Source: Planctomycetota bacterium (GTDB lineage Bacteria > Planctomycetota > GCA-002687715 > DRQF01). From it: DNA of 15,895 nucleotides. The stretch's first letter is position 1, and every line of letters begins with the position of its first letter. Positions 1-15,895 of the stretch are shown piece by piece. The notes under the pieces are model-generated. The model ran no database searches, was not told where the DNA came from, and saw nothing but the letters and a program-made list of their open reading frames with translations. The stretch covers positions 1-15,895 of the forward strand of contig WFTN01000495.1 in NCBI GenBank assembly GCA_015485455.1. Direction: 5' to 3'. The translations under genes were made by a program, and so were the position numbers.

Positions 1-196
1 GAATAGCGTTGTCTGCGGCGCCATCATCACCTGACGCCGAGTAGACGCGGATACGCTTGAATTCCCACTCCGTCACGCTGGAAATATCTTGGTCGATCAA
101 AAACACCGTGACGACGGCGCAGAAGATGGCCATAACTTTCGCCCAAACATGATGTCGAGCCAAGAGTGTGCGAATGAACCCCGAAGCTGAACTCAT
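1..196 (-). CDS. YbbR/CdaR-like membrane protein, N-terminal part (cut by window edge)
   Basis: Only the first 65 codons are visible; the gene continues beyond base 1. The ATG (196-194) overlaps the TGA of cdaA (195-193) in an ATGA arrangement, so translation is probably coupled. The visible peptide begins MSSASGFIRTLL. It has one hydrophobic stretch at about residues 18-34, followed by a segment that would lie outside the membrane. CdaR (YbbR-domain) proteins have this layout, with a short cytoplasmic start, one membrane anchor and extracytoplasmic YbbR repeats, and their gene almost always follows cdaA. CdaR binds CdaA and modulates its diadenylate cyclase activity in Firmicutes. The family call therefore rests mainly on position and on the N-terminal anchor. 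No YbbR repeat can be seen in this fragment, so I leave the symbol empty. Confidence 0.65.
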   Translation of the reverse strand, partial: MSSASGFIRTLLARHHVWAKVMAIFCAVVTVFLIDQDISSVTEWEFKRIRVYSASGDDGAADNAI

Positions 197-1104: not shown

Positions 1105-1120
1105 CGAGGTTTCTCATCTC

Positions 1121-1963
1121 TTATCTGAGTTGATCTAAGACAAGCAAAGCATCAACATGGGCGCGGACATCATGAACTCGCACCATTGGGACTTTCTTTC
1201 CGTGCAAGAATGCCGTGGTCGCCGCAGTCCCATGATCACGACGACGGGGATCTGATTCTCCAAGAATCTCCCCCAAGAAACTCTTACGGGATGTGCCAAC
1301 CAACAGGGGCCGATCGAGCTCGAAGAACTCCTCAATGCGGCGCAAAATGCTAAGGTTTTGCTCCAGAGTTTTTCCAAAGCCAATGCCAGGGTCCAAGATG
1401 GTCTGTGACCATGATACACCGAATCTTTCGGCACGTGTCATCACTTTGCTGAAGAAGCGCTTAATATCCACAATCACATCCTCATATTGAGGCGCATCTT
1501 GCATCGTTCGTGGGCTTCCTTGCATGTGCATGAGGATGCAGGGAGCACCGGTTTCCCCAATAAGAGCTGCCATGTTGGGGTCGTATTGCAATGCAGAAAC
1601 ATCATTCAAGATATCGGCGCCCACGTCAAAACAAGCGCGAAAGACCTCTGCATGGTAAGTATCAATAGAAATGGGGATTCGAATGGATGCCGCCAAAGCC
1701 TGAACGACAGGGAGCAACCTCTCCAATTCCGTTGCCACACCCACATCTTGGGCCCCTGGTCGGGTGGAGCAGGCCCCGATATCCAGGATAGCTGCCCCGT
1801 CCTCCACCATTTGCAGCCCTGCAGCCACCGCGTCATCAACGGCTTGAAATTTTCCGCCATCGGAGAATGAGTCCGGTGTAACGTTGAGAATCCCGGCGAC
1901 TCCGGTGCCAGGCCCTAATGAGAATGGGCCTCGCCGCGTCTCAAACCGGAATTCGGATGACAT
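1121..1963 (-). CDS. folP: Dihydropteroate synthase
   Basis: It condenses 6-hydroxymethyl-dihydropterin pyrophosphate with p-aminobenzoate in folate synthesis, in the cytosol, and is the sulfonamide target. The 280 residues match the family length (TIM barrel). Visible motifs are GILNVTPDSFSDGG (24-37, N27), the loop-2 motif DIGACSTRPGA (61-71), ISIDT with D101, ILNDVSAL with N120, DPGIGFGKT (191-199), GTSRKSFLG (223-231) and RVHD (262-265). Loop 2 normally reads GGESTRPG; here the Gly-Glu before STRPG is Ala-Cys. The pABA/pterin-contacting Thr-Arg-Pro are kept. The ATG at 1963-1961 has GGAG seven bases upstream. The gene sits 20 bp after ftsH and 16 bp before cdaA; ftsH-folP-cdaA-cdaR is a recurrent order in c-di-AMP-producing Gram-negative lineages. 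Confidence 0.96.
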   Translation of the reverse strand: MSSEFRFETRRGPFSLGPGTGVAGILNVTPDSFSDGGKFQAVDDAVAAGLQMVEDGAAILDIGACSTRPGAQDVGVATELERLLPVVQALAASIRIPISIDTYHAEVFRACFDVGADILNDVSALQYDPNMAALIGETGAPCILMHMQGSPRTMQDAPQYEDVIVDIKRFFSKVMTRAERFGVSWSQTILDPGIGFGKTLEQNLSILRRIEEFFELDRPLLVGTSRKSFLGEILGESDPRRRDHGTAATTAFLHGKKVPMVRVHDVRAHVDALLVLDQLR

Positions 1964-1983
1964 AGGCCGACTCCACAGGACGC

Positions 1984-4413
1984 TTAAGCTCCTTCGCCTG
2001 CCAAACCGGGAGGCAGTTTCGGTTCAGGTTCAGGTTCTGTGGGAGTTTGCACTGTTGGCTGACTGAGGGGAGTCTCTTCAGCATGCTCTTCCATGGATGC
2101 CCGCTCCGCAGCGATGCGCTCGCGCACAGACTCCACCGATTCCCCAGCCATGAGTCCAGCGATTTCTTCTCCGGTCAAGACTTCATATTCCAGAAGTGCT
2201 TCGGCCAACTTAGCCAGCTCATCCTTGTGCTCGCTCAAGACCTTCATGGTCTCAGAATAGGCTTCCGTAACAATGCGCTTAACCTCTTCGTCTATGGCTT
2301 CAGTCATAGACTCAGAAACAGAAGTTTGTCGGCCAAGATCGCGACCAATAAACACTTGCTCCTGATTCTCTTGGTAGCTGATGGGGCCGATAGTTTCACT
2401 CATGCCCCATTCTCGGACCATACTGCGAGCAATAGCCGTCGCTTGTTTGATGTCATTCGACGCTCCGGATGTGTAATCATCAAAGAAAAGCTCTTCTGCT
2501 ACACGCCCGCCAAAACAGATCTTCAAATGAGTCGTGGCCTTAACAACAGTGATGCTGTAAGAATCCTTCTCTGGCAAGTACATCGTGGCACCCAGAGCTT
2601 GCCCACGGGGTACAATGGTGACCTTATGGATGGGGTCAGAGCCAGGAGTCAACAAAGAAATCAAGGTGTGCCCAGCTTCATGGTAAGCCGTGATCTTCTG
2701 TTCATGCTCATCCATGATGCGGCTTGTCTTGGCTCTACCCCAGCGAACACGGTCCCGAGCTTCTTCTAAGTCTTCTTCGCAGACATAGTCCTTCTGGGCC
2801 AAAGTCGCCACAATGGCTGCTTCATTGACGATGGCCTCAAGCTCAGCCCCACTGAAGCCCGGTGTTCCCCGAGCAATCTTCGCCAGATCAATATTCGGAT
2901 GCAGCTTCACTTTACGGCCATGAACACGAAGAATCGCTTCACGCCCAACAACATCTGGTAGCTCAACCGTGACCTCCCGGTCGAAACGTCCTGGACGGAG
3001 AAGAGCCGGATCGAGGACGTCCACCCGGTTAGTGGCTGCGATGACGATGATGCCCGTGTCCGTTTCAAAACCATCCATCTCCACCAAAATAGCGTTGAGA
3101 GTCTGCTCTCTTTCATCATGGCCTCCACCAAGACCAGCGCCACGACGACGCCCCACCGCATCGATTTCGTCCAAGAAGATAATACAAGGAGAGTTCTCCC
3201 GTGCTTGCTTGAAGAGGTCACGGACCCGAGATGCACCCACACCAACAAACATCTCAACAAAGTCAGAGCCAGAGATACTGAAGAAGGGAACTTCAGCCTC
3301 GCCAGCAATGGCTTTCGCCAAGAGTGTCTTACCAGTTCCAGGGGGGCCGACGAGCAAGAGTCCTCGAGGCGTACGGCCTCCAAGACGAGCAAACTTGCCC
3401 GGGTGCTTGAGAAACTCAACGATCTCGGAGACTTCCGACTTCGCTTCTTCCACCCCAGCTACATCATCAAAAGTGACTGTGCTCTTCTCATGAGCATTCA
3501 TCTTGGCTCGACTCTTGCCGAAAGAAAGGACGTTCCCTCCCATGCCGTTGCCTCGCATCTGGCGGAAAACAAAGAACCACAAGAAGGCAATAATCAAGAT
3601 CCAAGGCACCAATCCGATCAGGACGTTTTCCCAAAGACCCGCAGACGGTGCCCATGAGAGCTCACCTTTACTGGTATCACCCAGATCAATAGTGACCTCA
3701 CTCGGAGAGGCAATCCCTAAACGAGCATTTACTTCCGTGGTGTTGGTCAGCTCGAGCAAACGATTGAAGCTAATGCGAACTGGAACTCGACTATCATTGG
3801 TCGCGATAGTCTTAGGAGTGAAGAGATAGACCTGTTGCCCACGAGAGCTGTCGGTCCGGCTACCGGCTCCGTCAACCTTATCCGTGGACGTGGGTTCCGT
3901 CATGCGAACCAAGAGATGATCGACATCATCGAAACTCAGGATGTAACGGCGATGAACAGCAAAATCGAGAGCAGCAATCCCCCCCGGCTTGGCGGCAGCC
4001 TCATAGAGGCGGAGCAATTGCTCATCGGCAAGATCGGCGTTGCGAGCGGCTTTGACTCCTAAACTCTGGAGCTCTGTCAGGCGATTTGCCCATTCTGAAG
4101 ACACTTGGGTAGGGACCACCACCCGCACTGTCTTACTCTTGCTGTCTTTTGGAGCTTTCTTGAGATCGACTTGAACGGCCGTTTGTTCAATCCGCATCTC
4201 TTTCACTTTGCCCTGAGCCAGGTAAGCAAAAAGTTCCGGCGAGGAAACGTTCTTCGGCTCTTGGAAGTTACTCCGAACCACCATCCAGACGATGAGTAGA
4301 ACCAATCCAATCAACAAAACGCCGGCAAAATTCTTAGGACGAGGAGGCTGCGCCCCATCTTGGTTGCCGTTATTGCCTGGTTCCGTGGGCGGCGGTGTAT
4401 TGCCGTTCGACAT
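1984..4413 (-). CDS. ftsH: ATP-dependent zinc metalloprotease FtsH
   Basis: A hexameric inner-membrane AAA+ protease that extracts and degrades misassembled membrane proteins and selected regulators. The 809 residues show a Gly/Pro/Asn-rich cytoplasmic start (1-28), TM1 (about 29-47), a long periplasmic domain (about 48-262), TM2 (about 263-285) and the AAA core. In the core are Walker A GPPGTGKT (356-363), Walker B IIFLDEID (411-418), the pore-loop FVG (residues 389-391) and the second region of homology with R473 and R476. The peptidase carries HEAGH (578-582) and the third zinc ligand D654 in SGASNDIK. The C-terminal tail is Pro/Glu-rich (PTEPEPEPK). The protein is much longer than the roughly 644-residue E. 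coli enzyme, mainly because of the periplasmic domain and tail. The ATG start has AGGAG at 4424-4420. It is the first gene of the folP-cdaA-cdaR operon. Confidence 0.98.
2021..2038 (+). repeat. Three-unit 6-bp tandem repeat in the 3' end of ftsH
   Basis: GGTTCA-GGTTCA-GGTTCT on the plus strand encodes the Glu-Pro repeat near the FtsH C-terminus. Six-base units keep the frame, so changes in copy number would only lengthen or shorten the tail. Confidence 0.7.
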
Positions 4414-4704
4414 GAAAAACTCCTGGTCCCCGTAAATCGACGGAGTCCGATTCTTACTGCTGCGCGGGTTTGAAGGTATCCCGCCACAGGATCAATACGA
4501 AGTCTGAAGTACCGCTGTCCAAAAAACACCTCCCCCAAATGACATTTGAGAGCAGAAATGTTTGCCTTAAACAGCCCGCATCTTTGACGTGGGGAATCTT
4601 AACTGATGCGATGAAGAGGAAAAAGAAAGTCACGACGTTCGTCGGCACCCTCCCAATGGGCTGGGGAATTTCCCCCACGCCGAGATCAAGAAGAGCCTAT
4701 GTCC
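4414..4704 (-). promoter_or_regulatory. Intergenic region upstream of ftsH: probable promoter region and 5' leader
   Basis: This 291-bp gap is the only sizeable break between lptE and the ftsH operon and so is where an ftsH promoter should lie. The ribosome-binding site AGGAG (complement of 4420-4424) is clear, seven bases before the ATG. I could not find a convincing -35/-10 pair for a vegetative sigma factor, and saw no CIRCE element. Small reading frames in the gap start at GTG without a ribosome-binding site and resemble nothing, so I treat the stretch as non-coding. Confidence 0.45.
4613..4676 (-). terminator. Possible terminator or structured 3' end after lptE
   Basis: Reading on the minus strand, about 28 bases after the lptE stop lies a GC-rich palindrome, GGGGAAATTCCCC. 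A second hairpin follows, CGAC-GAAC-GTCG inside the imperfect repeat at 4629-4648, and then directly a T-rich run, TTTCTTTTTC (complement of 4619-4628). The second stem is only four strong base pairs plus two outer pairs across mismatches, so an intrinsic terminator is plausible but weak. If it works, ftsH is transcribed separately from bamD-lptE. Confidence 0.3.
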
Positions 4705-5250
4705 TTAGTTAGACTCGACTTCCGAGCTTTGAGCTCGGATTTCTTCAAGATCTCGCAAGAAACTCTGGCGCTCAAGCTTATTGACGATGTCTTCTGCCAA
4801 ATCTCTTAGAGCTTCGTCGAAGGCCGTTTCCAGGCTTTCCCCACGTTCGACGATGAACTCCGCCCGGTTAGCTCTTTGAAACGAAATGAGAACCTTGCCG
4901 GTCTTTGCACTGCGCAACTCCACGAGGGCCTGCACGACAACGGCCTGTTCAGAGACCAGATTGCGATTCGATTCCACCAAAGTCGGCCGGGAAACGCTCA
5001 CGATTCGCCCAGTCAAGATAGCGTCGGCATTCCGTCTGCGTGTTACGCGAACCGGTGCTCGCTGATTAAGCTCTGCGGTGATCTCCCGGGTCAGTTGAAA
5101 CTCGATCTCCCGGTAAAAAGTGTCATTACCAAAGACATCAACGGCAATATTGTTCACCCCGGCTGGCAAAAGAGAACGGGTGGTGTAACCACAACTGCTC
5201 AATAGCGTCAAAGCCAGGACCATAAAAGCCAATGAGTTCTTAGTGACCAT
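4705..5250 (-). CDS. lptE: LptE-like LPS-assembly lipoprotein
   Basis: LptE is the outer-membrane lipoprotein that plugs and helps fold the LptD translocon, which places lipopolysaccharide on the cell surface. From the ATG at 5250 the protein has 181 residues. A Lys-bearing n-region and hydrophobic stretch end in the lipobox LSSC, with Cys20 and Gly at +2, which suits outer-membrane sorting. The mature part follows the LptE pattern: CGYTTRSLLPAGVNNIAVDVF, a helix with REIEFQLTREITAEL, RRNADAILTGRI, and a C-terminal helix LRDLAEDIVNKL. I prefer this ATG over a GTG 12 codons upstream (5286) because the longer form would put a poor, Pro-rich stretch before the signal peptide. The start lies inside the last codons of bamD (11-bp overlap), with no clear ribosome-binding site, so coupling to bamD is likely. 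The family is divergent and the call rests on pattern rather than on strict motifs. Confidence 0.75.
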   Translation of the reverse strand: MVTKNSLAFMVLALTLLSSCGYTTRSLLPAGVNNIAVDVFGNDTFYREIEFQLTREITAELNQRAPVRVTRRRNADAILTGRIVSVSRPTLVESNRNLVSEQAVVVQALVELRSAKTGKVLISFQRANRAEFIVERGESLETAFDEALRDLAEDIVNKLERQSFLRDLEEIRAQSSEVESN

Positions 5251-6346
5251 GAGAGGAATGCCCAGAAGGTTCGGGTGTGGGTGCACGTTCAGCGTTCTTC
5301 AGATTCTCCAACTCGTCGAAGAACTTGTCTTCGCTTGGATCCGGAAGAGTCCCTATGATTGCTTCAGCCTCTTTGGCAGCTTCCGAATCAGGATAGTCTC
5401 GAATACATCGGCGTAAGAAGAATCGGGCTGCTCCATTGTGACCCTGACCGATGTACCAATTGGCGATGGACACTTGCTTTTGGGCCAGAGTATTGACGAA
5501 AAAGGCTATATGTTGATCCGCCTCTTCCCGCCGCTCATCCTCGGGAAACTCACTCTTATAGCGCTCAAACAGCCGAATACCTTCATGCATGTTCTCTTGG
5601 TCGTAGGCTGGCCCCTTACACATGGCCAAGCGACAAAGGCCTTGATTAAACAAAGCTCGAGGAGCCCAAACAGAACGATGATAGCGCTCGACGATGGTGG
5701 CATAGGCAGCTTCCGCTTCGATGAAGTTATCTTGATCAAAAAGGTAGTTCCCCAGTTTCCATTGAGCCTCGTCAGCGAAATGGCCATTGGGGAAATTGGT
5801 AACGATCAACCGTAGAAGGGCAACACCATCACTCTCCAAATTGAAGATGAACCAGCTATGCTTACCTTCCAAGTATTCGTTGGCCAAACGCCAAGCACTC
5901 GCCTCAATCTCTTCATTGAGCTCGGAAATCGGATAGAGGCGGACGAACTCCTTGATGCCATTGCGAGCATCGGTGGCTTCTTCCAATTCGAGATAACTAA
6001 GAATAAGAAGATGACGTGCCAAACGATCGTTCACCGTATCGGGAAAGTCTTCTAAGTAGAGCTCTAACGCCACCGCTGCTTGCTCGTGGTTTCCTGCGTC
6101 ATGGATGCTCTTGGCTTCATCAAATGCCTCCTGTGCATGACGGGTCTCTTCTTTGGAGCGGTTGAGGATGCGGATTCTTGCCTGATAGCGCTCAAGCTCG
6201 TCCGCCCCAGGATCTGAGCGGAGAAAATCGGGCAAGGCTTGGTTGAACTTGCGCCCAAACGAACCACAGCTCGTTAAAAGTGCAGTCGCGAACACCACAA
6301 GAATGAGCTTGGCCCCATGGGAGCGGGCCGATTGAGCCTGTTGCAT
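5240..6346 (-). CDS. bamD: BamD-like outer-membrane assembly lipoprotein (TPR)
   Basis: BamD is the TPR lipoprotein of the beta-barrel assembly machine. It works with BamA on the periplasmic face of the outer membrane to insert porin-like proteins, including LptD. The 368 residues begin with a signal peptide ending in LTSC (Cys27, Gly at +2). Repeated TPR-like helical pairs follow, for example EAFDEAKSIHDAGNHEQAAV near 73-92 and YLFDQDNFIEAEAAYATIV. A late repeat, VSIANWYIGQGHNGAARFFL, is very close to the typical BamD sequence. The protein is longer than the roughly 245-residue E. coli BamD, with an extra middle section and a tail rich in Pro, Ser and His (SGHSSHGH). The ATG has AGGA five bases upstream. 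lptE starts within its last codons. A generic TPR tol-pal-type lipoprotein is the main alternative, but the pairing with lptE favours BamD. Confidence 0.8.
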   Translation of the reverse strand: MQQAQSARSHGAKLILVVFATALLTSCGSFGRKFNQALPDFLRSDPGADELERYQARIRILNRSKEETRHAQEAFDEAKSIHDAGNHEQAAVALELYLEDFPDTVNDRLARHLLILSYLELEEATDARNGIKEFVRLYPISELNEEIEASAWRLANEYLEGKHSWFIFNLESDGVALLRLIVTNFPNGHFADEAQWKLGNYLFDQDNFIEAEAAYATIVERYHRSVWAPRALFNQGLCRLAMCKGPAYDQENMHEGIRLFERYKSEFPEDERREEADQHIAFFVNTLAQKQVSIANWYIGQGHNGAARFFLRRCIRDYPDSEAAKEAEAIIGTLPDPSEDKFFDELENLKNAERAPTPEPSGHSSHGH

Positions 6347-6400
6347 TTTCCTAAACCCTTTACAGGAAGGACCTTAGAATTCCAAAAGATGATCATTTGA

Positions 6401-6429
6401 ATCCTACTGCTATAGGGGTACGAGATCAA
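6401..6429 (-). promoter_or_regulatory. Candidate promoter for bamD-lptE
   Basis: On the minus strand TTGATC (6429-6424) is followed after exactly 17 bases by TAGGAT (6406-6401), each with four of six consensus positions, about 55 bases before the bamD ATG. Spacing is ideal but the hexamers are moderate. A perfect 13-base palindrome overlaps the -35 element. Confidence 0.35.
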
Positions 6430-6438
6430 CTCAGTTGA
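6426..6438. promoter_or_regulatory. Palindrome TCAACTCAGTTGA, possible operator
   Basis: A perfect inverted repeat of six bases each side of a single central C, lying between recO and bamD and overlapping the candidate -35 box. It has no T-run after it on the minus strand, so it is not a terminator. A repressor-type binding site is possible; no known operator was recognised. Confidence 0.25.
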
Positions 6439-6474
6439 GCAGGTCTTTCTGACACTGGAATTGTCGCCGAGAAT

Positions 6475-7299
6475 CTATCGAGAGGCATCGGATGAAACCG
6501 AAGGTGCGATCTTCTTGACATCCTTTTCCAAGAACCCCCATTGAGGGTCGAGAGCAAAGGGCTCACTCAGAATGGGTTTCTCAAAGATTCCAAGGAAGAT
6601 CCTGGCCATGAGGCCACGCAAGGATCGATGTTGGCGGCGAGAAAGTGGGATTTCCGCCGCTTCCACTGGTCCATGACTCCCTAAGAGAATGAGCAAACGA
6701 ATATGGTCAGGGTCAACAACCACCGGTTCAGAGCCAGGACTTGGGCACCGAGAGCAAACATAGCCCCCCTCCTGGGGGTAGATTGCCATCGTCTCCTTCG
6801 TCGGCGCAGACTGGCAGCGGACGCACTTCTCCACTTCAACGGCGAATCCAATGGCCTGGAGCAAAGCAAATTCCGAAGCGAGAACAATGGGACGAGCAGC
6901 CGTCTCCTTACTGGCATCAAGAGCACCGAAGGCTCGCATCAGCACCTCGAATGCTGGGTGGTTCGGGTCTTCCTCCCGGACGCTTTGATAGAGAATATCG
7001 GCGAGGTAAAAGGCTGAGAGAAGGCTTCCAAGCTTCTTCCGCATCTTGGGAAAACCGGTCATGGGCTCATAGCGTTGCAACAACCCAAGGGCGCTCCCTT
7101 GGCTCGATCGGTAGGTAATCTTCGCCAACTGGAAGAGGTCAAAAGGACCTTTAAGATAAGAATTCGGCTTTTTGATGCCTTTGGCCAAAACGGAAATGCG
7201 GCCCGCATCCGGAGTGAGCAGGTGGCCGATCTGACTGGTTTCCCCATAGTCAAATCGGCGCAAGACAAGGCCAATAGTTTGGTGCTCAGTAAAAGCCAT
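6475..7299 (-). CDS. recO: DNA repair protein RecO
   Basis: RecO loads RecA onto SSB-coated single-stranded DNA together with RecR in the RecFOR gap-repair pathway. From the ATG at 7299 the protein has 274 residues. An N-terminal OB-fold region carries the family start GLVLRRFDYGETS, LLTPDAGRISVLAKG and YLKGPFDLF. A helical middle includes SLLSAFYLADILY. A zinc-ribbon pair follows, CVRC (159-162) and CSRC (182-185), and the C-terminal helices end with SLRGLMARIF. A GTG 14 codons upstream (7341) would give a longer protein, but RecO proteins normally have only about nine residues before the LVLRR segment, so I chose the ATG. Its ribosome-binding site is poor (AAGG rather far upstream). It lies between the CNNM/CorC gene and bamD on the same strand. 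Confidence 0.93.
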   Translation of the reverse strand: MAFTEHQTIGLVLRRFDYGETSQIGHLLTPDAGRISVLAKGIKKPNSYLKGPFDLFQLAKITYRSSQGSALGLLQRYEPMTGFPKMRKKLGSLLSAFYLADILYQSVREEDPNHPAFEVLMRAFGALDASKETAARPIVLASEFALLQAIGFAVEVEKCVRCQSAPTKETMAIYPQEGGYVCSRCPSPGSEPVVVDPDHIRLLILLGSHGPVEAAEIPLSRRQHRSLRGLMARIFLGIFEKPILSEPFALDPQWGFLEKDVKKIAPSVSSDASR

Positions 7300-7514
7300 G
7301 ACTGCACTATACTGCCTTGCGGGACGTTTCGCTTGGGTCACCTCTTCGATTCATGCGATTGGGGCGTTGTGCTGACCCTAAGCTCAGTACATTCAGCCCG
7401 TTTGTCCTATTCTTGGCAGATTGCCAGAGTTTGTGAAGATCGAGTCCCTTGTAAACCCGGGGGCTTAACCCGAATGATTCGTGACCTCGGGACCGATCTC
7501 ATGGATGAGTCGGG
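7300..7514 (-). other. Non-coding gap between the CNNM/CorC gene and recO, with inverted repeats
   Basis: I see no supported gene in this 215-bp stretch. It contains an eight-base-pair stem whose 5' arm includes the stop codon of the upstream gene (TAACCCGA at 7517-7510 with TCGGGTTA at 7473-7466), with a small CTCA-TCCA-TGAG hairpin inside. It also holds an inverted repeat TGGCA-GAT-TGCCA at 7414-7426. Neither is followed by a T-run. A TATAGT that resembles a -10 box lies close to the recO ATG, but no -35 partner fits. Confidence 0.3.
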
Positions 7515-8792
7515 TTAGGAAGGCGATTCATCTTCCACAGGTTCGAGGGTTAAGCGAACTCGTTTCACTTTCCGATCATCAGCTTCCGTGACTTCGAAGT
7601 GGACGCCTTCCATCTCCACTTCTTCTCCCATGGCTGGTACTTTCCCCAGTTGGCTGGCCAAGAAGCCACCCACCGTATCGTACTCACCTGTATCAGGAAT
7701 CCTTAGGTCGAGTTTTTCGTTCAAATCGTCAATGGGGAGCTTGGCATCCACCACAACGGTGTTCTCCAAGACCTCGCCAATTTCGATTTCGTCGTCTAAG
7801 TCAAATTCGTCCTGAAGCTCGCCAACAATTTCTTCGAGAATGTCTTCAACGGTGACAATACCGGCGGTCCCGCCGAATTCATCCAAGACGATGGCAATAT
7901 GAATCTTCTCTGCTTGGAGCAATTTGAGGAGTTCGTTGATCTTCTTGGTTTCTGGAATGAACAAGGGTGGCCTAAGGATTTCAGTCCAAGCCAGCTCGCC
8001 AGCTTGCAATTTTGCCAGATGGCGCAGGACGTCCTTGAAATAAAGAACACCAACAATCTGATCCCGGTTGTCTTTGTAGATAGGAATCCGAGAATGGCCG
8101 TGCTCTCCCAAGGTTTTCAGGGCATCTTCCAGGCTCATGTCATACTGAGCGCAGAGGAGGGAGGGGCGCGGAGTCATGATCTCCCGGGCAATTCGATCCC
8201 GAGACTCCATGATGTTCTCGATGTAGTCAGCGGCGTTTTCGCCCAAGATTCCTTCGGCTTCACCCTCTGAGACAGCGTCCAGAATTTCCTCCACCGCATC
8301 TTCTTCTTCCGTTGGAACTTCATGGCCACCAAAGAGTCGACCCATGAAAACCCCAAAAATGCCAAGAGGGATGGTAATGGGTTGAAAGACTTTGGTGATG
8401 ACGCAAATGAATCCCAACAGGCTGAGTAACACCCGTTCTGGGGCTCTGGCTACGGTTGTACGAACCAGCCCCTTGGGGACGATCACCACCGCGAGGATAA
8501 ATAGACTGAGGGTGGAGAAGTCAAGACGACCCCCAACCCCAGAAAAAGCACTACCGAGAAGCAAACCACAGGCAGAAACGATGAGGGTGACGGAGTTAAA
8601 GATAGACAAGGCCAGGGCGTGACCATCGAAGTCTTTCAAACGCGCGCTGATATCCGTAATGCGCTCTTCATCCCCAAGAATTTTCTCGAGCTTACTGTGG
8701 CTGTAAGTCAGCAAAGCCCCTTCTGCGGCCTGCCCAAAGATGAATCCCGTACCTGCAATGATGCCAAAAATAAGGGCCGTACTGTCGTCCAA
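7515..8792 (-). CDS. CNNM/CorC-family membrane protein with CBS pair (hemolysin C-like)
   Basis: Members are inner-membrane ion transporters or regulators, several linked to Mg2+ (or Co2+) efflux and gated by nucleotide binding to CBS domains. The 425 residues show a DUF21/CNNM membrane domain (about 5-150, four hydrophobic stretches). A linker resembles GEAEGILGENAADYIENIMESRDR. A CBS pair follows (about 205-259, with IMTPRPS and GHSRIPIYKDNRDQIVGVLYFKD, and 270-325, with VLDEFGGTAGIVTVEDILEEIVGE). A CorC_HlyC domain closes the protein (about 335-417, with YDTVGGFLASQLGKVP). The CBS and CorC parts are canonical; the membrane domain is divergent, with the usual GE-x-x-PK segment reduced to VIVPK. 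The start is TTG (8792) with GGAG ten bases upstream and no in-frame ATG nearby. The exact substrate cannot be told from sequence. Confidence 0.9.
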   Translation of the reverse strand: MDDSTALIFGIIAGTGFIFGQAAEGALLTYSHSKLEKILGDEERITDISARLKDFDGHALALSIFNSVTLIVSACGLLLGSAFSGVGGRLDFSTLSLFILAVVIVPKGLVRTTVARAPERVLLSLLGFICVITKVFQPITIPLGIFGVFMGRLFGGHEVPTEEEDAVEEILDAVSEGEAEGILGENAADYIENIMESRDRIAREIMTPRPSLLCAQYDMSLEDALKTLGEHGHSRIPIYKDNRDQIVGVLYFKDVLRHLAKLQAGELAWTEILRPPLFIPETKKINELLKLLQAEKIHIAIVLDEFGGTAGIVTVEDILEEIVGELQDEFDLDDEIEIGEVLENTVVVDAKLPIDDLNEKLDLRIPDTGEYDTVGGFLASQLGKVPAMGEEVEMEGVHFEVTEADDRKVKRVRLTLEPVEDESPS

Positions 8793-8968
8793 GCGATTGG
8801 AACTCCGAATGAGAAAAGCGCTACTCGCATTAGAATCTACGATACTTGCTGCGAATCTTATAGACGTTCTATTATGGAAGATCGGCCGGAAGAATATTCA
8901 AACCAAAGAAGAATCTGCCAAGTGTCGGCCCAAATGACATAAATGTTCTTGATAAAGTGACTTAAGTG
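8793..8968 (-). promoter_or_regulatory. AT-rich intergenic region, likely promoter of the CNNM/CorC gene
   Basis: A 176-bp gap between the HEAT-repeat lipoprotein and the CNNM/CorC gene. On the minus strand it contains AT-rich segments resembling -10 boxes (CATAATAG and CTATAAGATT), but no -35 element at good spacing. No hairpin with a T-run follows the lipoprotein gene, so read-through from it is possible. I see no gene here. Confidence 0.3.
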
Positions 8969-9961
8969 CTATTCGTTTTTGCGCCACATGGTCGATGTTG
9001 ACTTCAAATAAGCCTCGAATGCATCATAACTTTCCATGCGAATCTCATCGCTTGCAGTTGGGTCTATGGCAGGCAAGGGCCTGGGAGTCAGGCTCTTCAA
9101 CCACTGGAAGCTTCCCTGGCGTACCGCAGATGACGGATCCTCCAAGATCAGTTGGACAGCTTTGGCCGCGAGACGCTTATCCATCACTTTCGCCCTCAAG
9201 AGATCCTGGGTTGTCTTGAGTCGTGTGGTTTCATCCTGGTGGTCCAAGAGCATCTCCACCATCTCGTCGAACTCAGGCACTTCCTTGCGCCGAGGCAAAA
9301 TCAACTTGAGGGCGGCTTTTGCACTGGATCCGTCCAAGTCCTCCACTGACTTAGCGACTTTTCTCAAGGTGGCCACACTTGGCTTACCCAGAGATAGGGC
9401 TTGGAGAACTTCATACTGCACCCGCCCATCCTCATCCTCCAAAAGAAGGACCAACTCCCCCACCAACTCTGGGTAGTACTTGGCCCACAATGTCGTCACG
9501 TCTCGGCGAACCAATGGGTTTTTGTCTTCTCTTCCTTTTCTCAAATGGCGCTTTCCCTGCTCTGGGTCAATGGCAGCAAAAGCCCCAAGAGCCATCAAGC
9601 GGATGTCGCTGTCCTTGTGGGTTAAGAAAGGTTCGATCTCCTCCAAAGCAGGTAGAGCCGCTGACCCCAGGCGGCCAAGACGACTGAGGGCTCGAACCGT
9701 TGCCTCAACGTCCTTCGCCGCTCCAAGGTCCGATCGGGCACGCCGCAGCTTTCGGCTGGTTTCAACCCGCGCTGATTTAGCAACGCGCTCTTCGTTGCGT
9801 CTTTGAACTTCGGATTCCGTCAAAGCGGTTCCCTGAGTCAGAAGTGTCACCGGCTCCCGGCGCTTCAAGACCACCAACTTCCCAGGCTCTCCCCCACAGC
9901 TGCTTAGAGCAAGGAGACCGACGAGAAAAACAGCATCCATTGAAAACCTGTTCTTGGCCAC
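8969..9961 (-). CDS. HEAT-repeat lipoprotein of unknown function
   Basis: I do not recognise a characterised homologue. The 330 residues start with a signal peptide ending in LSSC (Cys22, Gly at +2), so the protein is probably anchored in the outer membrane facing the periplasm. A charged, likely helical stretch follows (about 46-75). From about 85 to 291 there are at least five HEAT-type second-helix signatures of the form D-x-x-S-x-V-R-x-x-A: HKDSDIRLMALGAF, DKNPLVRRDVTTLW, DEDGRVQYEVLQAL, HQDETTRLKTTQDL and DPSSAVRQGSFQWL. HEAT solenoids are protein-binding scaffolds, so a partner-binding role is likely, but no enzymatic motif is present. The start is GTG (9961) with GAGG seven bases upstream, better than the ATG at codon 8. 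It lies upstream of the CNNM/CorC gene, on the same strand, at a divergent junction with hutI. Confidence 0.8.
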   Translation of the reverse strand: MAKNRFSMDAVFLVGLLALSSCGGEPGKLVVLKRREPVTLLTQGTALTESEVQRRNEERVAKSARVETSRKLRRARSDLGAAKDVEATVRALSRLGRLGSAALPALEEIEPFLTHKDSDIRLMALGAFAAIDPEQGKRHLRKGREDKNPLVRRDVTTLWAKYYPELVGELVLLLEDEDGRVQYEVLQALSLGKPSVATLRKVAKSVEDLDGSSAKAALKLILPRRKEVPEFDEMVEMLLDHQDETTRLKTTQDLLRAKVMDKRLAAKAVQLILEDPSSAVRQGSFQWLKSLTPRPLPAIDPTASDEIRMESYDAFEAYLKSTSTMWRKNE

Positions 9962-10014
9962 AACTTACCCTCACACCGGGAAAACAACGGCTATCCTGAA
10001 GCCATTCCTTCCCC

Positions 10015-10044
10015 ACTCTACACCAGATGGCCTCCATTCGCCAA
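10015..10044 (-). promoter_or_regulatory. Candidate promoter for the HEAT-repeat lipoprotein
   Basis: On the minus strand TTGGCG (10044-10039) and TAGAGT (10020-10015) stand 18 bases apart, the second preceded by TG, about 54 bases before the GTG start. Each hexamer matches four of six consensus positions. This is a weak but position-appropriate candidate in the 176-bp divergent gap; no equally good promoter was seen for hutI on the plus strand. Confidence 0.3.
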
Positions 10045-10137
10045 AGAGTTGGTGCTCTGGTCACCGTGCAATAAACTGAGCTGCGCCATTGGCCCGTTTG
10101 CCAAGGGCTAAACCCGACCACAGGACCGGAGATTGCC

Positions 10138-11409
10138 ATGCAGAAGGTAGATATGATCATCAAGAGTCGGGGAGATTGGCTCACTTTGGCCCAAGAGCAG
10201 CCTGGGCCTCGTTGTGGTGCCTCCATGGACGAACTGACCGTCAAGCAGAATCAAGCCATCGCCATCACCGAAGATCGAATCACGGCCATTGGGCCAGTCG
10301 CCGACATTCTGGAGAGCTATAGCAGCGAAAACGTATTGGACTGGGGCGATCGTCTGGTCATGCCCGGTTTGATTGACCCCCATACCCACCCCATTTTCCT
10401 GGCAACTCGCGAAAACGAATTTCAAATGAGGAATCTGGGCAAATCCTACGTCGAAATTGCTTTGGCCGGGGGCGGCATTCGTTCATCGGTCCGATCATTG
10501 CGTCAGGCTTCCGAAGACGAGCTGACAGAATTAGCCCTCAAGCGTGCAGATGGATTCTTGGCTCTAGGCACCACCACAATCGAAGCCAAAAGCGGCTACG
10601 GTCTCAGCACCGAGGACGAAATAAAATCTCTCCGGGCCATCCGCCGGACCAACGAGAATCACGTTATAGACCTTGAGCCGACTTTTCTCGGTGCCCATGA
10701 AATCCCCGACGAGTATCGTGAAGACCGCAACGCATACATCGACCTCATTATCCAGGAAATGATCCCAGCGGTAGCGAAAGAAAAGTTAGCCCGCTTCTGT
10801 GATGTTTTCTGCGAGGCTCACGTCTTCACCGTCGAAGAATCAAGGCGCATCCTCAACGCAGCCAAACAACATGGCATGGAAATTCGGATCCATGCGGACG
10901 AAATTGAAAGCACCGGAGGGGCAGAACTTGCTGCGGAAGTCGGCGCCCTATCCGCAGATCACCTTGGAGCCATCAGCCCTCTGGGAATCGAAAGAATGCG
11001 CGACGCCAAAGTGGTCGCCACCCTCCTCCCGGGCACATCGTTCTTCCTCAACTTGGACTGCCGTGCTCCTGGGCGCAAGATGATCGACGCAGGTGTGGCT
11101 GTGGCCTTGGCCACGGATTTCAACCCCGGATCTTGTCACACCCAGTCCCTCTTCATGATCATGACCATTGCCTGCATCCACTACGGTATCACCGCTGCGG
11201 AAGCGATTACCGCCGTCACAGTCAACGCCGCCTACACCTTAGGGTTAGATCAAGATCGAGGACAACTCAAAGCTGGCATGCGAGCGGACATCATCGGCGT
11301 TGATGCCCCCAATGCCGCTTTTCTGCCCTACAAATTCGGTGACAACCCTGTCCGAGCTGTGGTGAAGAACGGCAAACTCGTGAGCCACCTTTCGACCTCT
11401 TGTTCATGA
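10138..11409 (+). CDS. hutI: Imidazolonepropionase (histidine degradation)
   Basis: It hydrolyses 4-imidazolone-5-propionate to N-formimino-L-glutamate, the third step of histidine breakdown, in the cytosol. The 423 residues form an amidohydrolase of normal length. The metal and substrate residues are in place: H82 and H84 in DPHTHPIF, KSGYGL (151-156), H187 in LGAHEIP, FCEAHVFTVEESRRIL, H252 and E255 in HADEIES, GALSADHL with H275, LLPGTSFFL, and D327 in VALATDFNPGSC. These motifs separate HutI from other amidohydrolases. The ATG has GGAG eight bases upstream. There is no hutH, hutU or hutG in the window, so the pathway genes must be elsewhere if the pathway is complete. The next gene on this strand begins 103 bases further. 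Confidence 0.97.
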   Translation: MQKVDMIIKSRGDWLTLAQEQPGPRCGASMDELTVKQNQAIAITEDRITAIGPVADILESYSSENVLDWGDRLVMPGLIDPHTHPIFLATRENEFQMRNLGKSYVEIALAGGGIRSSVRSLRQASEDELTELALKRADGFLALGTTTIEAKSGYGLSTEDEIKSLRAIRRTNENHVIDLEPTFLGAHEIPDEYREDRNAYIDLIIQEMIPAVAKEKLARFCDVFCEAHVFTVEESRRILNAAKQHGMEIRIHADEIESTGGAELAAEVGALSADHLGAISPLGIERMRDAKVVATLLPGTSFFLNLDCRAPGRKMIDAGVAVALATDFNPGSCHTQSLFMIMTIACIHYGITAAEAITAVTVNAAYTLGLDQDRGQLKAGMRADIIGVDAPNAAFLPYKFGDNPVRAVVKNGKLVSHLSTSCS

Positions 11410-11512
11410 CCCAAGGGCCCCTCACCTCATTGCGGCTCCACAAAACAATTTTCAAAATGGATGAAACGTTCTGCAATTGGGCTTCGACAGGTTAGAAAGG
11501 AGTCCAACCAAA
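11410..11512 (+). promoter_or_regulatory. Gap before the sigma fusion gene, with its ribosome-binding site
   Basis: The perfect Shine-Dalgarno AAGGAG at 11497-11502, ten bases before ATG 11513, decides the start of the sigma fusion over an in-frame TTG at 11477. The gap also holds ATTTTCAAAAT, a short perfect palindrome. I found no convincing terminator for hutI and no clear promoter, including none of the usual ECF-type (AAC-containing -35) form. Confidence 0.5.
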
Positions 11513-14431
11513 ATGAAACATGAACTCGATCCATTCCTCATCCACGAACAAGAGCTGCGCCAAGCGGCCCGTTCTCGATCAGCGAACGACACCGATGCAG
11601 ATGATCTTCTGCAAGATGTTTGGTTGGCCGTCTTGGAAGCACCTCAGCGCCGGGCCAACTCCGATAAGTCCTGGCTCATGGGAGTTCTTCGTCACGTCTC
11701 CGTCAACCAGTTTCGCCGGGACAGCGCTAGACGTAGAAGAGAACGCCTGTCATCACGGGCGGAAGAAACAGAATCCACCGTTGACATCGTGGCCCGAGCA
11801 TCCCTGCGGCGGCAACTCTTGGATGCCATGTTGGAATTACAGGCGCCCTATCGCAAAGTCCTCTTGCTTCGCTTTTTGTCAGACATGCCACCCCGAGAAA
11901 TCGCTCAGTATTTGGACGAAAATCCAGCCACAATCCGAAGCCAACTCAAAAGAGCCCTTGTACTCTTAAGAGAAAAACTCGGTGTCAACGAAAAGGATAA
12001 ACGGCTACGGGCTCTTGCCATCTTCTGCCCAGGTTTAGCCGACCGTGGAACCATCACGACTACCCTACTCCAAGTCTCAGGTGCCATCGCCGCTACCATT
12101 GTGGCTGTGGTGTCCCTGAGCTACCTGCTTGACGATGAAGAGGTCATTCCCATGGTCGAGCAAGCCACTTGGGTTCAGCCACAGCCCCATAGTCCCCGCC
12201 GAACGAAAACACAGAAAGTCGAAAAAGTGAACCCGGCCAACAATCCACGGCCGAAACCTCCAGCAAGCCTTCTGGCCGTCCGCGGTCAAGTTTCCCTACT
12301 TCCTGAAATCACTGGGGCCAACACCGAATTAGAAGTTTCAGTGCAACCCGTGTTAAGCGGACCAGCCTCGAATTTCTTGGGTCTCTCGGCTTATGACCAC
12401 CATCTAAGAACCATGGGCCCAGATGCCTTCAGGGTGCAAACAACTGATGGTGGAAAATTCACTGTGCCCATGACTGAGCCGGGCCTATTGACTATTTCCT
12501 TCACCTCCCGCAAGTTTCCGGGCCGCAGCCAGATCATCGCAAACCACATGGATTCAAAAGTCCACCGTCACCACATTCGCTTGCTTCAGGACATAGACCT
12601 CAGACTCACGGACCAAGATCTGCGATTCCAAGGCCCCGTCCGCAATGGCCTGGGCATAAAACTGACTTCCAAAGATATTGATCACATCCAAAGGCCAGGA
12701 CCTTGGTTGCCCGGTGTAGGAATCCCAGTGTACGACGCCAGTTCAGATTTAACTTGGTACTTACGTTTGCGGGAGTCTCAAGCTCACCTGGGACCACCCC
12801 ATGTGCAACGCTGGTGCAACTTTCAATTGTTCGACACCCGTCATGGAGGCCCCTTGGCCCACGTCCAAGCCCGAATTCGATTCCAGGGGCGCAACTTTCG
12901 CGAGTGGACTTGCGAACTCCCCCAAGTCATCGATGGAAACCTCCGTTTCCCAATCCTTGACATCAACCCACAATCGGCGAATGTGGTCCTCGAATTCCAA
13001 TTCGAAGATGGAACCCTCATGAAAGTTCCCCGCTTTCAAAAAGTCGCTCTCGCCCTAAAAGGACAATTCGACGAAAACAACATTCCCATGTGGATCAGCC
13101 AACCCATGTCCATTCGGGAAGCAGAGATCGTAGATCAAAACGGTTCTCCCATAGATAAGGTTGTGGCCATACGCTTGGGACATTCTGGTCCGAGTTCTTG
13201 GGCCAGCAGTAATTCTAATGGCCAGCTCTCAATGTCTTCCATCCCTCCGGCCTTAGACCCAGCCATCGCTGTGGTTCGAGAAGGCCCACGTCCAGGTCTC
13301 TATGTTGGCGATCCAGATCCCGGGAAAGACATACTTCTTTGGCATGCGAGTCGGGGATTTCTCCGCCTCAAAGAAGACCAGCAAAGCCCATGGGTTTGGC
13401 CCAATCTACCTGGGCGGAAGATTCAATTTGTGTCGGAGGTCGGTGAACCTCTCCCTGGGTTGGAAATCCGTATCCGCCCTCAAGGAATTTTCGCCCATGA
13501 ACGTTATCTTTGTCGCCGCCCTGTGAAGAGCGATGCCAAGGGCGCAGTACGCCTCCCCCCCATCCAAGGTGGCTCTTTTGAAGCCATGGTCACCTTAGGT
13601 GAAAGCGAAACCTGGATTTTCGACTGCGCAAAACTCAATGACATCACCACCATCCCCTATCGGAATCTACCGAAAAACAAGCAAGAGATTTCTATCGTCA
13701 ATGAGCAAGGTAGGGTGTTAGCAGAAGTCCGCGGGCAATTGCGTCAGGTTGGCAGCAAACGACTGATTCGCCAAGTCAGCAATCACAACGGGCTCTTCGA
13801 ATTCCCCGAAATTAGCATAGGCACCCACTATCGTTTTGACATCCTGGCGGCCGGTCGTGAATTGTCCCTCAGGGCTGACAACTCAGTGGTGGGTGGGTCC
13901 AAGCGCCTACAATTCGCCGCTATCCCCTTGATCGACTACAACTTTCAGCTCAACGAGACCCCTTGGACAAAATCCAAGTTTTTGGGCATCATGATGGAGC
14001 GAGAAGGTGGTCGCCGGCGAGCCATTTTCAGTTCCCAGCCAAGGGCATACCTACCATTGACGGCGGAAACTCAAGAACTGACGATCTATCGACCAGGATG
14101 CCGTGCCCAGACCATTGACTGGAATCCAAGTCAAGGTCGGGTGAGCGCTTTGCTCAAGCCCGGCCCCAAGATCACCCTACGTTTGAACGAAGACGCCAAG
14201 ACCGGACACGTCCGACTGTCAGCCCTGAGGATTGCCACCAAAGACAGGCACCTAAAGCCTCTCAAGAGTGCTCTTTCTCAGTTTCAAGTCTCTGTCGAGG
14301 TCCACCAGCAAGATGTTGCGATTGGCCCCTTGACCCCAGGCCGCTACCGAATCGATTACGCTTCGGGCAAAGCCCAGGTGAAGTCGCGCATCGTCGAGAT
14401 CAAGCCAGACACGGAAATTGTGAATCTCTAA
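11513..14431 (+). CDS. ECF sigma factor fused to a transmembrane segment and a large exported beta-rich region
   Basis: The protein has 972 residues. Residues 10-77 form sigma-70 region 2, with DADDLLQDVWLAVLE (28-42) and WLMGVLRHVSVNQFRRD (54-70). Residues 99-156 form region 4, with a helix-turn-helix around MPPREIAQYLDENPATIRSQLKRA. No region 1.1 or 3 is present, as in ECF factors. A hydrophobic helix follows (about 185-206, ending in VVSLSYLL), then a Pro/Lys/Arg-rich linker (222-250) and about 720 further residues. This last part contains several carboxypeptidase-regulatory-like beta domains: about 255-330; 530-590 (VDQNGSPIDKVVAI); 635-695 (GEPLPGLEIRI then SDAKGAVRLPPI); 725-785 (NEQGRVLAEVRGQL then NGLFEFPEI); and a closing domain at 920-965 (GPLTPGRYRIDYASG). 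The expected topology is sigma inside, beta region outside. No anti-sigma gene adjoins it. The fusion is read in one frame without a stop. Target genes are unknown. Confidence 0.88.
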   Translation: MKHELDPFLIHEQELRQAARSRSANDTDADDLLQDVWLAVLEAPQRRANSDKSWLMGVLRHVSVNQFRRDSARRRRERLSSRAEETESTVDIVARASLRRQLLDAMLELQAPYRKVLLLRFLSDMPPREIAQYLDENPATIRSQLKRALVLLREKLGVNEKDKRLRALAIFCPGLADRGTITTTLLQVSGAIAATIVAVVSLSYLLDDEEVIPMVEQATWVQPQPHSPRRTKTQKVEKVNPANNPRPKPPASLLAVRGQVSLLPEITGANTELEVSVQPVLSGPASNFLGLSAYDHHLRTMGPDAFRVQTTDGGKFTVPMTEPGLLTISFTSRKFPGRSQIIANHMDSKVHRHHIRLLQDIDLRLTDQDLRFQGPVRNGLGIKLTSKDIDHIQRPGPWLPGVGIPVYDASSDLTWYLRLRESQAHLGPPHVQRWCNFQLFDTRHGGPLAHVQARIRFQGRNFREWTCELPQVIDGNLRFPILDINPQSANVVLEFQFEDGTLMKVPRFQKVALALKGQFDENNIPMWISQPMSIREAEIVDQNGSPIDKVVAIRLGHSGPSSWASSNSNGQLSMSSIPPALDPAIAVVREGPRPGLYVGDPDPGKDILLWHASRGFLRLKEDQQSPWVWPNLPGRKIQFVSEVGEPLPGLEIRIRPQGIFAHERYLCRRPVKSDAKGAVRLPPIQGGSFEAMVTLGESETWIFDCAKLNDITTIPYRNLPKNKQEISIVNEQGRVLAEVRGQLRQVGSKRLIRQVSNHNGLFEFPEISIGTHYRFDILAAGRELSLRADNSVVGGSKRLQFAAIPLIDYNFQLNETPWTKSKFLGIMMEREGGRRRAIFSSQPRAYLPLTAETQELTIYRPGCRAQTIDWNPSQGRVSALLKPGPKITLRLNEDAKTGHVRLSALRIATKDRHLKPLKSALSQFQVSVEVHQQDVAIGPLTPGRYRIDYASGKAQVKSRIVEIKPDTEIVNL

Positions 14432-14616
14432 CCGGACAAATGGTCCCCACAACCTCTCGAACGATTCAATTCTTGCTTCGAAGAATAGGACACAACGCCA
14501 TACCACCAAGATCCAAGATAAAACTGCGGTTTGAGACTTTCTTGCAACGTTTCGGCAAGCAGCTTTGACTGAAGGGTGAGATCGGCAGTTTCATTCTTAG
14601 AAAGTTGAGAATCATC
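14432..14616 (+). promoter_or_regulatory. Intergenic region before the FG-GAP gene
   Basis: A 185-bp non-coding gap. It contains a six-base-pair stem ATTCTT-GCTTCG-AAGAAT (14469-14486) and a second stem, CTTGC with GCAAG, around 14542-14560. Neither is followed by a T-run, so neither is a good intrinsic terminator. A TTGACT near 14564 has no matching -10 box at normal spacing. The ribosome-binding site before ATG 14617 is weak (TTGAGA). Confidence 0.35.
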
Positions 14617-15895
14617 ATGAATTTGAAGAAAACAGTGAGAGCCTCCTCTGCGGCGCTCTGCACCTTGGCGCTGATGGCCACGGCCAGTTGGGGCCAGTCA
14701 ACCATCATCGAAGTCCAAGGGGCCCCCACTTATGCCAGCACAGTGGCTTGCCCTGGCGATGTGAATGGGGACGGGATCAATGACTTGGCCGTGGGCGATG
14801 ACATCGTCGGCTCCGTCGAGATCCTCTCGGGTATCGACGGATCGCTCATTCGCCAGTTGAATATACCCGCCAACGGTCAAACCTGGGGTAACCAACCAAG
14901 TTACTGCATCGACACATTGGGAGACCTCAATGGCGATGGCAACGACGACTTCATGGTTAGCAAGGTTGGCGACACCATCAGCGGATTGGTCGGTTCTATC
15001 CCTATTGGACCCGGTATTGTCGGCGTCTTCTCTGGGCAAACTGGCAGCCCCTTGTACGTCATCCCCGCCATCTCAAGTGAACAGAGCTTCGGCTACGCCG
15101 CTATCTCCGTTGACGACCTTGACCAAGATGGAAAACGCGACATCGTTGTCGGTGCCCCTGGAGCCTCAACCCAGGGCAAAACAGAAAACGGTTATGTTGC
15201 TGTCTACTCCGGAGCGACTGGAACACTCCTTTATCTCATCCATGGTGCAGGTAGTACCCATCGCTTCGGCCAATCCCTTGCCAACACCCATGATCTGGAT
15301 GGTGACAACAAAGGGGATTTCGTGGTTGGCAGCAATCGGGCAGCTGGCACAGCTTTCATCATTTCTGGCAATAACGGCAGTCTCATTCGTAGTCACCAGG
15401 CTGGTTCCGCGACTCTGTCTAACTCCTTCGGTTTGGGTTACCCGGACATTGAGGTAGCCGGAGGCGCTGATGTCAACGGCGATGGCACGAATGACGTCGT
15501 CTTGGCCAAGCGAGGTGATCAAACCAATGGCCCTAACGCCGGCGCGATCTTCATCTACTCTGGCCTCAATGGTCAAATGCTTGGCATGATTCTCGGTGGA
15601 CCCTGTGACGGCATCGGGGCCAAAATCGATTTGGCCGATGTCAATAACGATGGCATGGCCGACATCCTGTCAAGCAGTCGCAACGACGCTGGACACGACG
15701 ACGACGTCACCGTCTATTCCGGAGCAACCAACAACCCCACCTTCGATACCGACGGTGTCAGCAATGACATGACGCAGATTTCCTTGGTTGGCGACGTCGA
15801 TGGCGACGGCACCAAAGACTTCTTCGTAGGCACAGACCCCAGTGGATCCAATCCAGGTCGGGCCATTGTCGTGGCTGGTGGTCCTTGGATGGGTG
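14617..15895 (+). CDS. Secreted FG-GAP/VCBS (integrin-alpha-like) repeat protein, cut by window edge
   Basis: The reading frame is open from ATG 14617 to the end (426 codons); the stop is outside the window. A Sec signal peptide starts MNLKKTVR, has a hydrophobic core and probably is cut after ATASWG. Seven FG-GAP units follow. Each carries a calcium-loop motif D-x-[ND]-x-D-[GN]-x-x-D: at residues 48 (DVNGDGIND), 103 (DLNGDGNDD), 167 (DLDQDGKRD), 226 (DLDGDNKGD), 285 (DVNGDGTND), 341 (DVNNDGMAD) and 393 (DVDGDGTKD). They are spaced 52-64 residues apart and each is followed by a hydrophobic strand. This matches a seven-bladed beta-propeller, so one full propeller is probably present. Such proteins are surface-exposed or exported, bind calcium and are often adhesive or anchored by later domains. 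Any C-terminal anchor or sorting domain is not visible. Confidence 0.88.
   Translation, partial: MNLKKTVRASSAALCTLALMATASWGQSTIIEVQGAPTYASTVACPGDVNGDGINDLAVGDDIVGSVEILSGIDGSLIRQLNIPANGQTWGNQPSYCIDTLGDLNGDGNDDFMVSKVGDTISGLVGSIPIGPGIVGVFSGQTGSPLYVIPAISSEQSFGYAAISVDDLDQDGKRDIVVGAPGASTQGKTENGYVAVYSGATGTLLYLIHGAGSTHRFGQSLANTHDLDGDNKGDFVVGSNRAAGTAFIISGNNGSLIRSHQAGSATLSNSFGLGYPDIEVAGGADVNGDGTNDVVLAKRGDQTNGPNAGAIFIYSGLNGQMLGMILGGPCDGIGAKIDLADVNNDGMADILSSSRNDAGHDDDVTVYSGATNNPTFDTDGVSNDMTQISLVGDVDGDGTKDFFVGTDPSGSNPGRAIVVAGGPWMG

Follow-up and report, generated by a model that had tools for sequence, protein, structure and literature searches.

This analysis concerns a 15,895-nucleotide stretch of DNA from a Planctomycetota bacterium (GenBank assembly GCA_015485455.1, contig WFTN01000495.1), hereafter the window, in which the gene at positions 11513..14431 of the forward strand joins an extracytoplasmic function (ECF) sigma factor, a hydrophobic helix and a very long C-terminal region in a single polypeptide. 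The window spans one contig (C495) in full; the draft genome to which it belongs measures 4.13 Mb and is 77% complete. We propose, with a probability of roughly 0.55, that the product is a one-polypeptide transmembrane ECF sigma factor which would act on the promoters of its own gene and of the adjacent FG-GAP repeat gene and would operate without a separate anti-sigma factor. This reading is favoured because the sigma part is intact, the helix is retained in 51 of 52 distinct long family sequences, the sigma side of the helix is the more positively charged, the tails are of extracellular type, zinc signatures are absent (0 of 66), the two genes share an upstream motif and IutY offers a precedent. 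The elements of the gene are the following.

11513..14431, forward strand: the whole fusion gene of sigma, transmembrane and beta parts, an open frame of 972 amino acids plus stop, with homologues and a same-genus ortholog
11496..11502, forward strand: ribosome-binding site AAAGGAG, read in the sequence, 10 nt before the ATG at 11513 and conserved ahead of the same-genus ortholog
11543..11725, forward strand: Sigma-70 region 2, residues 11-71 (Pfam PF04542 Sigma70_r2, 33.0 bits, cut-off 24)
11807..11962, forward strand: Sigma-70 region 4, residues 99-150 (Pfam PF08281 Sigma70_r4_2, 43.8 bits, cut-off 25.7)
11984..12073, forward strand: linker from sigma region 4 to the helix, residues 158-187, site of the family motif LDxxYGGDRxxWxxALLPL, which is degenerate here
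12074..12130, forward strand: hydrophobic helix and predicted membrane span, residues 188-206 (mean Kyte-Doolittle hydropathy 2.08)
12149..12262, forward strand: basic, proline-rich linker, about residues 213-250, read in the sequence
12260..14428, forward strand: C-terminal region, residues 250-972, about 720 residues, predicted to be exported and Ig/transthyretin-like (weak CarboxypepD_reg match, family-profile match and family data)

The general ECF model NCBIfam TIGR02937 matched residues 10-156 with 70 bits (cut-off 42.9). The protein carries sigma regions 2 and 4 only, the region 3 family being absent from its Pfam list, as in ECF (group 4) factors, and the solved structures closest to it in sequence are those of ECF sigma factors. 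By hydropathy, residues 188-206 form its sole segment of membrane strength. The initial annotation, made from the sequence by a model, had described both sigma regions, one helix, a basic proline-rich linker and a single frame with a ribosome-binding site; Pfam, hydropathy and the sequence bear out this layout and its coordinates, and the helix, placed then at 185-206, lies close by. An alternative in-frame TTG start at 11477 was judged less likely than the ATG at 11513. A false assembly join or a frameshift between two genes was rejected, as the window holds a single open frame; a two-gene join is also ruled out by the ortholog in a second genome of the genus (G001), where one frame on contig C195 runs from the sigma part through the helix into the outer region. 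A chance layout is excluded because this ortholog exists and the window's own genome encodes four more long paralogs built in this way.

A segment with a mean hydropathy of at least 1.6 was present within 130 residues past sigma region 4 in 51 of the 52 distinct long sequences, at a median offset of 40.5 residues; the lone sequence without it is cut short and ends 21 residues after region 4. Among 80 ordinary or low-scoring sequences taken for comparison, one had such a helix (L070, itself a long fusion), and only 7 of the 80 have at least 40 residues past region 4, so that this control mainly shows that ordinary ECF factors are short. In 42 of the 52 long sequences the sigma side had the more positive net charge over the 15 flanking residues; in 3 it was the less positive side and in 7 the two sides were equal. 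A second hydrophobic stretch of equal strength further downstream was found in 5 of the 52, many of the sequences being cut downstream by the end of the locus. These features suggest that the family is likely to have its N-terminus inside and its C-terminus outside.

The membrane span was judged by hydropathy and not by a trained topology predictor, a point in favour of an explanation in which the helix does not span a membrane, or the sigma domain is a relic, in a cytoplasmic or structural beta protein that has no transcriptional role. We consider this highly improbable, given the retention of the helix across the family, the resemblance of the tails to extracellular domains, the standing of the sigma domain as the most conserved part of the protein and the shared motif carried by its gene. 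The same grounds of helix retention and extracellular-type folds led us to reject a buried helix followed by a C-terminal region in the cytoplasm. The initial annotation had named in advance three observations that would speak against a tethered sigma, namely a non-membrane hydrophobic segment, homologues lacking it and a sigma part that has lost its functional residues. None of the three was made, as the helix recurs throughout the family, the homologues retain it and the sigma domain is intact.

With regard to the outer region, 16 of 18 aligned family members matched CarboxypepD_reg at E<=0.01, with a best value of 4e-61, and paralog L010 showed five such stretches. The family tails also match other prealbumin and Ig-like families, and the family profile, compared with the PDB, matched chains of NOMO2, invasin, SusC and cell-wall anchor proteins. 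The C-terminal part of the window protein alone scored 28.6 bits against CarboxypepD_reg, and a piece of the ortholog reached 1.8e-11. When the tails of the window protein and its ortholog were aligned with the beta region of the family by hhalign, 146 columns matched (92%, E 5.4e-7) from a shallow alignment. Used alone as a query, the outer region of the window protein returned only the window's own protein in a protein search and, among 20 relatives, only the same-genus ortholog. One of 18 members in family alignment A4 matches FGE-sulfatase (E 8.2e-32), which indicates that the outer domain is not always CarboxypepD_reg-like. CarboxypepD_reg-like domains without sigma, behind a hydrophobic N-terminus, were found in two of the four such neighbours scanned (L151 and L039). 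The L151 protein (9259-12192, minus strand), encoded between two sigma fusions, has 978 amino acids, a hydrophobic N-terminus and eight CarboxypepD_reg stretches and gave no sigma match; the outer module thus seems to occur alone too.

A recognisable anti-sigma component was sought in the protein and in its surroundings. None of the 66 long sequences holds a CxxC/HxxxC zinc signature in the 65 residues after sigma region 4, and no anti-sigma Pfam family, including zf-HC2, matched the window protein at E<=1. The window's own genome has six zf-HC2 matches, of which five have an ordinary ECF gene 258-330 bases away (contigs C554, C532, C577, C206 and C549), and none was found on the contigs of its five long fusions. 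Neither neighbour of the window gene is a recognisable anti-sigma gene; one of another type, or encoded at a distance, may exist, as the genome is incomplete. The initial annotation's view of a membrane-tethered, one-component sigma factor that dispenses with a separate anti-sigma factor is supported at the level of sequence.

The linker itself deserves attention, since a motif of roughly LDxxYGGDRxxWxxALLPL follows sigma region 4 in 49 of the 66 long sequences by a crude [RKDH]xxW test. Such conservation across paralogs would be unneeded in a passive tether, and an origin from anti-sigma factors has been proposed for some fused ECF extensions (PMC8999054; here and below, the cited papers are drawn on from excerpts). 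The linker could accordingly be a miniature built-in anti-sigma factor, a reduced relative of sigma/anti-sigma fusions, which covers the sigma until an outer signal arrives. We regard this as unlikely, although it merits consideration: the linker is short, shows neither a zinc signature nor an anti-sigma Pfam match at E<=1, and both the window protein and the ortholog carry its motif in degenerate form.

In the mechanism that we favour, the sigma2-sigma4 part would be cytoplasmic and held at the inner membrane by the single helix, and the beta region of about 720 residues would lie outside as a sensor or ligand-binding arm. The tether would keep basal activity low, with no separate anti-sigma factor in use. 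Activation would most likely occur by signal-dependent proteolysis near the membrane, yielding a soluble sigma of about 20-22 kDa, as in IutY. The active sigma would then direct RNA polymerase to the motif YGMAACG-N16-YGAC before its own gene, resulting in positive autoregulation in vivo, and would also drive the neighbouring FG-GAP gene, which probably encodes an exported protein.

ToxR and CadC are models for transcription by membrane-anchored proteins, and the same layout could serve a sigma that transcribes while anchored, with polymerase and promoter recruited to the membrane and a ligand-driven change or clustering in place of cleavage. Neither a protease site nor a release element turned up in support of cleavage, and the distance of about 31 residues between the end of the sigma model (156) and the helix (188), with a family median of about 40, could leave room for a tethered polymerase. 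Nevertheless, we hold anchored transcription to be rather improbable, as proteolysis activates IutY, the fused relative that has been studied by experiment, and release has also been proposed for ECF52 (PMC8999054, PMC5826349).

The assignment of targets in the proposed tethered sigma factor comes from a motif, not noted in the initial annotation, that the two genes share at the following places.

11462..11488, forward strand: predicted ECF-like promoter of the sigma gene, TGAAACG-N16-CGAC, first base 51 nt from the ATG (shuffle test)
14543..14569, forward strand: predicted ECF-like promoter of the FG-GAP gene, TGCAACG-N16-TGAC, first base 74 nt from the ATG (shuffle test)
14617..15895, forward strand: downstream FG-GAP repeat gene with a signal-like N-terminus, truncated where the contig ends (five FG-GAP stretches by Pfam, E 1.3e-26)

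Within the limits of the contigs, the fusion gene and the FG-GAP gene are direct neighbours in both genomes, and the distance of 51 nt from motif to ATG is identical in the same-genus ortholog. The pattern YGMAACG-N16-YGAC ([TC]G[AC]AACG-N16-[CT]GAC) stands in register in all four upstream regions, namely the two of the window and their equivalents in L028 and L029, with 11 of 27 columns invariant. In paired dinucleotide shuffles of the FG-GAP regions with the sigma-gene regions fixed, none of 2000 reached 11 invariant columns (mean 7.1, maximum 10), nor did any of 300 shuffles in which all possible windows were allowed. ECF promoters are typically marked by AAC at -35 and CGT at -10 (PMC8103513); the shared motif fits the former, whereas its -10-like box is YGAC instead. 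Among the motif sites inspected (14 of 17 in the own genome, G000, and 15 of 35 in G001), those lying cleanly upstream of a gene were the sites of the sigma and FG-GAP genes in both genomes and that of L171 in G000, while L161 is doubtful.

Several points weigh against the proposal of a tethered sigma that acts on these two promoters. When the two FG-GAP regions were shuffled 20000 times, the strict pattern appeared in 10 shuffles of one and in 1 of the other, figures which are optimistic because the pattern was derived from the same four regions. Across the genome, the motif occurs at chance level in G000 (17 sites against 18 in the control; 35 against 22 in G001), and no wider regulon emerged from the own-genome count. 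When 14 distinct family genes (15 rows) with a co-directional neighbour were analysed for a shared motif, the window gave p 0.01, another gene gave p 0.045-0.06 and the others fell short of significance, and in four of the 14 no site pair could be used; as only the window is taken as significant, wiring to the neighbour is supported for this locus and not as a general family trait. Lysine and arginine are equally frequent on both sides of the helix (1.17 before, 1.15 after), so that the charge asymmetry stems from acidic residues after the helix (2.8 vs 0.25). In the window protein, the claimed repeated carboxypeptidase-regulatory-like folds come down to a single CarboxypepD_reg match below the cut-off (26.1 of 32.3 bits), and it is for the family (16 of 18) that this part of the initial annotation stands. 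Finally, genes for Site-2-type proteases (Peptidase_M50) are present, as they are in 14 of 14 control genomes, and are therefore uninformative on sigma release.

A search for homologues sharing the layout of sigma, membrane helix and beta region, of the kind suggested at the outset, returned a large family. The window's own genome has 30 sigma-region-2 matches, of which five lie in open frames of 832-1219 residues, and all five combine sigma, helix and long tail. A protein search in which 8000 candidates were scored gave eight further proteins of 730-1128 residues, every one with precomputed sigma and CarboxypepD_reg domains. A model of approximately the first 240 residues (alignment A2) was run on 392 genomes sampled from the phylum, of which 72, from 60 of 267 genera, had a match at E<=1e-40; seven candidates were scored per genome, and copy numbers from this survey are therefore lower bounds. 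In seven chosen genomes, matches at E<=1e-25 numbered 7 (own genome), 19, 22, 23, 5, 12 and 32, with at most 150 candidates scored per genome and the counts being lower bounds for four of the seven. An open frame of at least 500 residues was present in 107 of these 120 matches, one of them with an in-frame stop, and several of the remaining 13 lie at contig ends. The device had been taken for a singular one; it belongs instead to a large Planctomycetota clade, and a lone oddity was rejected in view of its presence in 72 of the 392 genomes and its multiple copies per genome. Among named genomes, for which the best 80 of 150 confirmed places were considered and 30 loci were checked for frame length, 11 were long and had the helix, ten of them with titles naming Planctomycetota, Planctomycetes or Planctomycetia and one just 'bacterium'. 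A culturable relative, Planctomycetes bacterium Poly30, has two nearby family members (L043). As the view outside the phylum comes from those best 80 of 150 places, restriction to Planctomycetota is observed and not proven.

In a tree of 144 sigma domains, the bootstrap of which had not settled, all 66 long sequences fell in one branch (100/95), a result favoured by the definition of 'long', which depends partly on the model score (at least 130 bits). Two short sequences, L044 and L037_p_10226, fall in the same branch, and both end at a contig or locus end. Beside one family member, the frame at L070 2115-5780 (minus strand; L070_m_6767) encodes a sigma protein of 1222 amino acids with a long tail and a strong hydrophobic helix. 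Its sigma domain belongs to a distant lineage (66 bits with the family model), so that long sigma fusions have more than one origin in the phylum.

The G001 ortholog lies on two contigs, C195 with sigma, helix and the first outer part, and C68 with the rest, followed by the orthologous FG-GAP gene, and we take the two pieces to be one gene. The sigma part is 65% identical to that of the ortholog (157 codons, pN 0.24, pS 0.76), the linker and helix 37%, and the outer region 34% over 559 residues and 30% over a further 177, whereas the FG-GAP protein is 58.5% identical over 424 codons; as synonymous sites are saturated, only the order of constraint is meaningful. At the sequence level, the sigma is conserved and the outer part is drifting.

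ECF factors that unite sigma and membrane span in one chain are known from experiment for IutY, in part for ECF52, and by prediction for ECF53 and ECF48 (PMC8999054, PMC5826349). IutY of Pseudomonas putida (ECF243) is likewise a single membrane-spanning chain, from which Prc and RseP remove the C-terminal part and thereby free the active sigma; its extension, however, is a fused membrane-bound anti-sigma factor of cell-surface signalling, for which the window protein has no Pfam match at E<=1 (PMC8999054). ECF52 (SCO4117 of Streptomyces coelicolor), ECF53 and ECF48 share with the window protein one chain with ECF sigma, membrane helix, proline-rich stretch and outer domain (PMC5826349, PMC8999054), the helix after the sigma part being found here at residues 188-206. 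They differ by a zinc-finger, anti-sigma-like domain between sigma and helix, of which the window family shows no signature (0 of 66), and by extensions of up to about 400 residues in Actinobacteria, compared with a beta-sandwich-type tail of about 720 residues in Planctomycetota. ECF52 additionally has a carbohydrate-binding outer domain, whereas no carbohydrate-binding Pfam family matched the window protein at E<=1. ECF57 and other planctomycete WD40 fusions resemble the family in their long, beta-rich C-terminal extensions, but ECF57 has WD40 repeats and two conserved sigma cysteines (PMC8999054), while the window protein lacks cysteines in residues 1-157 and gave no WD40 match at E<=1. Some Tuwongella ECF factors have been recovered in detergent-soluble fractions (PMC8567305). 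Canonical pairs of ECF sigma and membrane anti-sigma factors also carry an outside signal to a sigma2-sigma4 protein, with the difference that two genes are used.

The concept of a one-chain transmembrane sigma is not novel, since membrane-spanning ECF factors with exported domains were already known (IutY/ECF243, ECF52 and ECF53; PMC8999054, PMC5826349); the Planctomycetota clade is a new variant of it. Within its coverage, which did not extend to the 2021 ECF classification, the 2012 planctomycete and 2020 79-planctomycete surveys and the 2019 review of ECF factors with regulatory extensions, our literature search found no description of a Planctomycetota family combining sigma, transmembrane and CarboxypepD_reg parts, and the clade may already be numbered as an ECF group. 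We tentatively suggest, as something short of an even chance, that it forms an undescribed class of direct transmembrane sigma factors with no anti-sigma domain, a single origin, about 20-30 copies in some genomes and fast-diverging outer arms, in which every member would control its own gene together with a few exported targets.

A sigma and an anti-sigma protein are the usual minimum for ECF signalling. In this family, sensor arm, anchor and promoter-recognising subunit appear as one chain, in up to tens of copies per genome, so that, if the proposal is true, each cell would hold an array of private outside-to-promoter switches of one polypeptide each. For the window member, the specific candidate promoter TGAAACG-N16-CGAC and the FG-GAP protein as a likely target make sigma regulation by tethering alone testable, and the family could offer self-contained switches from the outside to transcription.

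The upstream neighbour of the window gene is, by translation, presumably an imidazolonepropionase-like gene, and the gene upstream of the sigma gene differs between the window and G001. The block at 193-9961 on the minus strand presumably comprises cdaA, folP, ftsH, an LptE-like lipoprotein, a BamD-like gene, recO, a CorC-like gene and a HEAT-repeat lipoprotein. In the family at large, an exported downstream neighbour as a rule gave a mixed picture (crude gene caller, part of its output). Upstream of 67 family genes, many spacings between AAC and CGA or CGT were tried; one of them, GAAC-N15-CGA, occurred 8 times forward and once in reverse, which is too weak a signal. In L158, genes at 927-2063 (minus strand) and 5402-6580 (plus strand) flank a sigma fusion gene on both sides and have N-terminal parts that are alike by eye. 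A further family match in the own genome (G000:C98:1805-2467, minus strand) lies in a frame of 851 amino acids that holds one in-frame TAG. At G158:C1:4806948-4816213, four same-strand family matches about 3 kb apart, with frames of 931-1029 amino acids each, form a tandem array.

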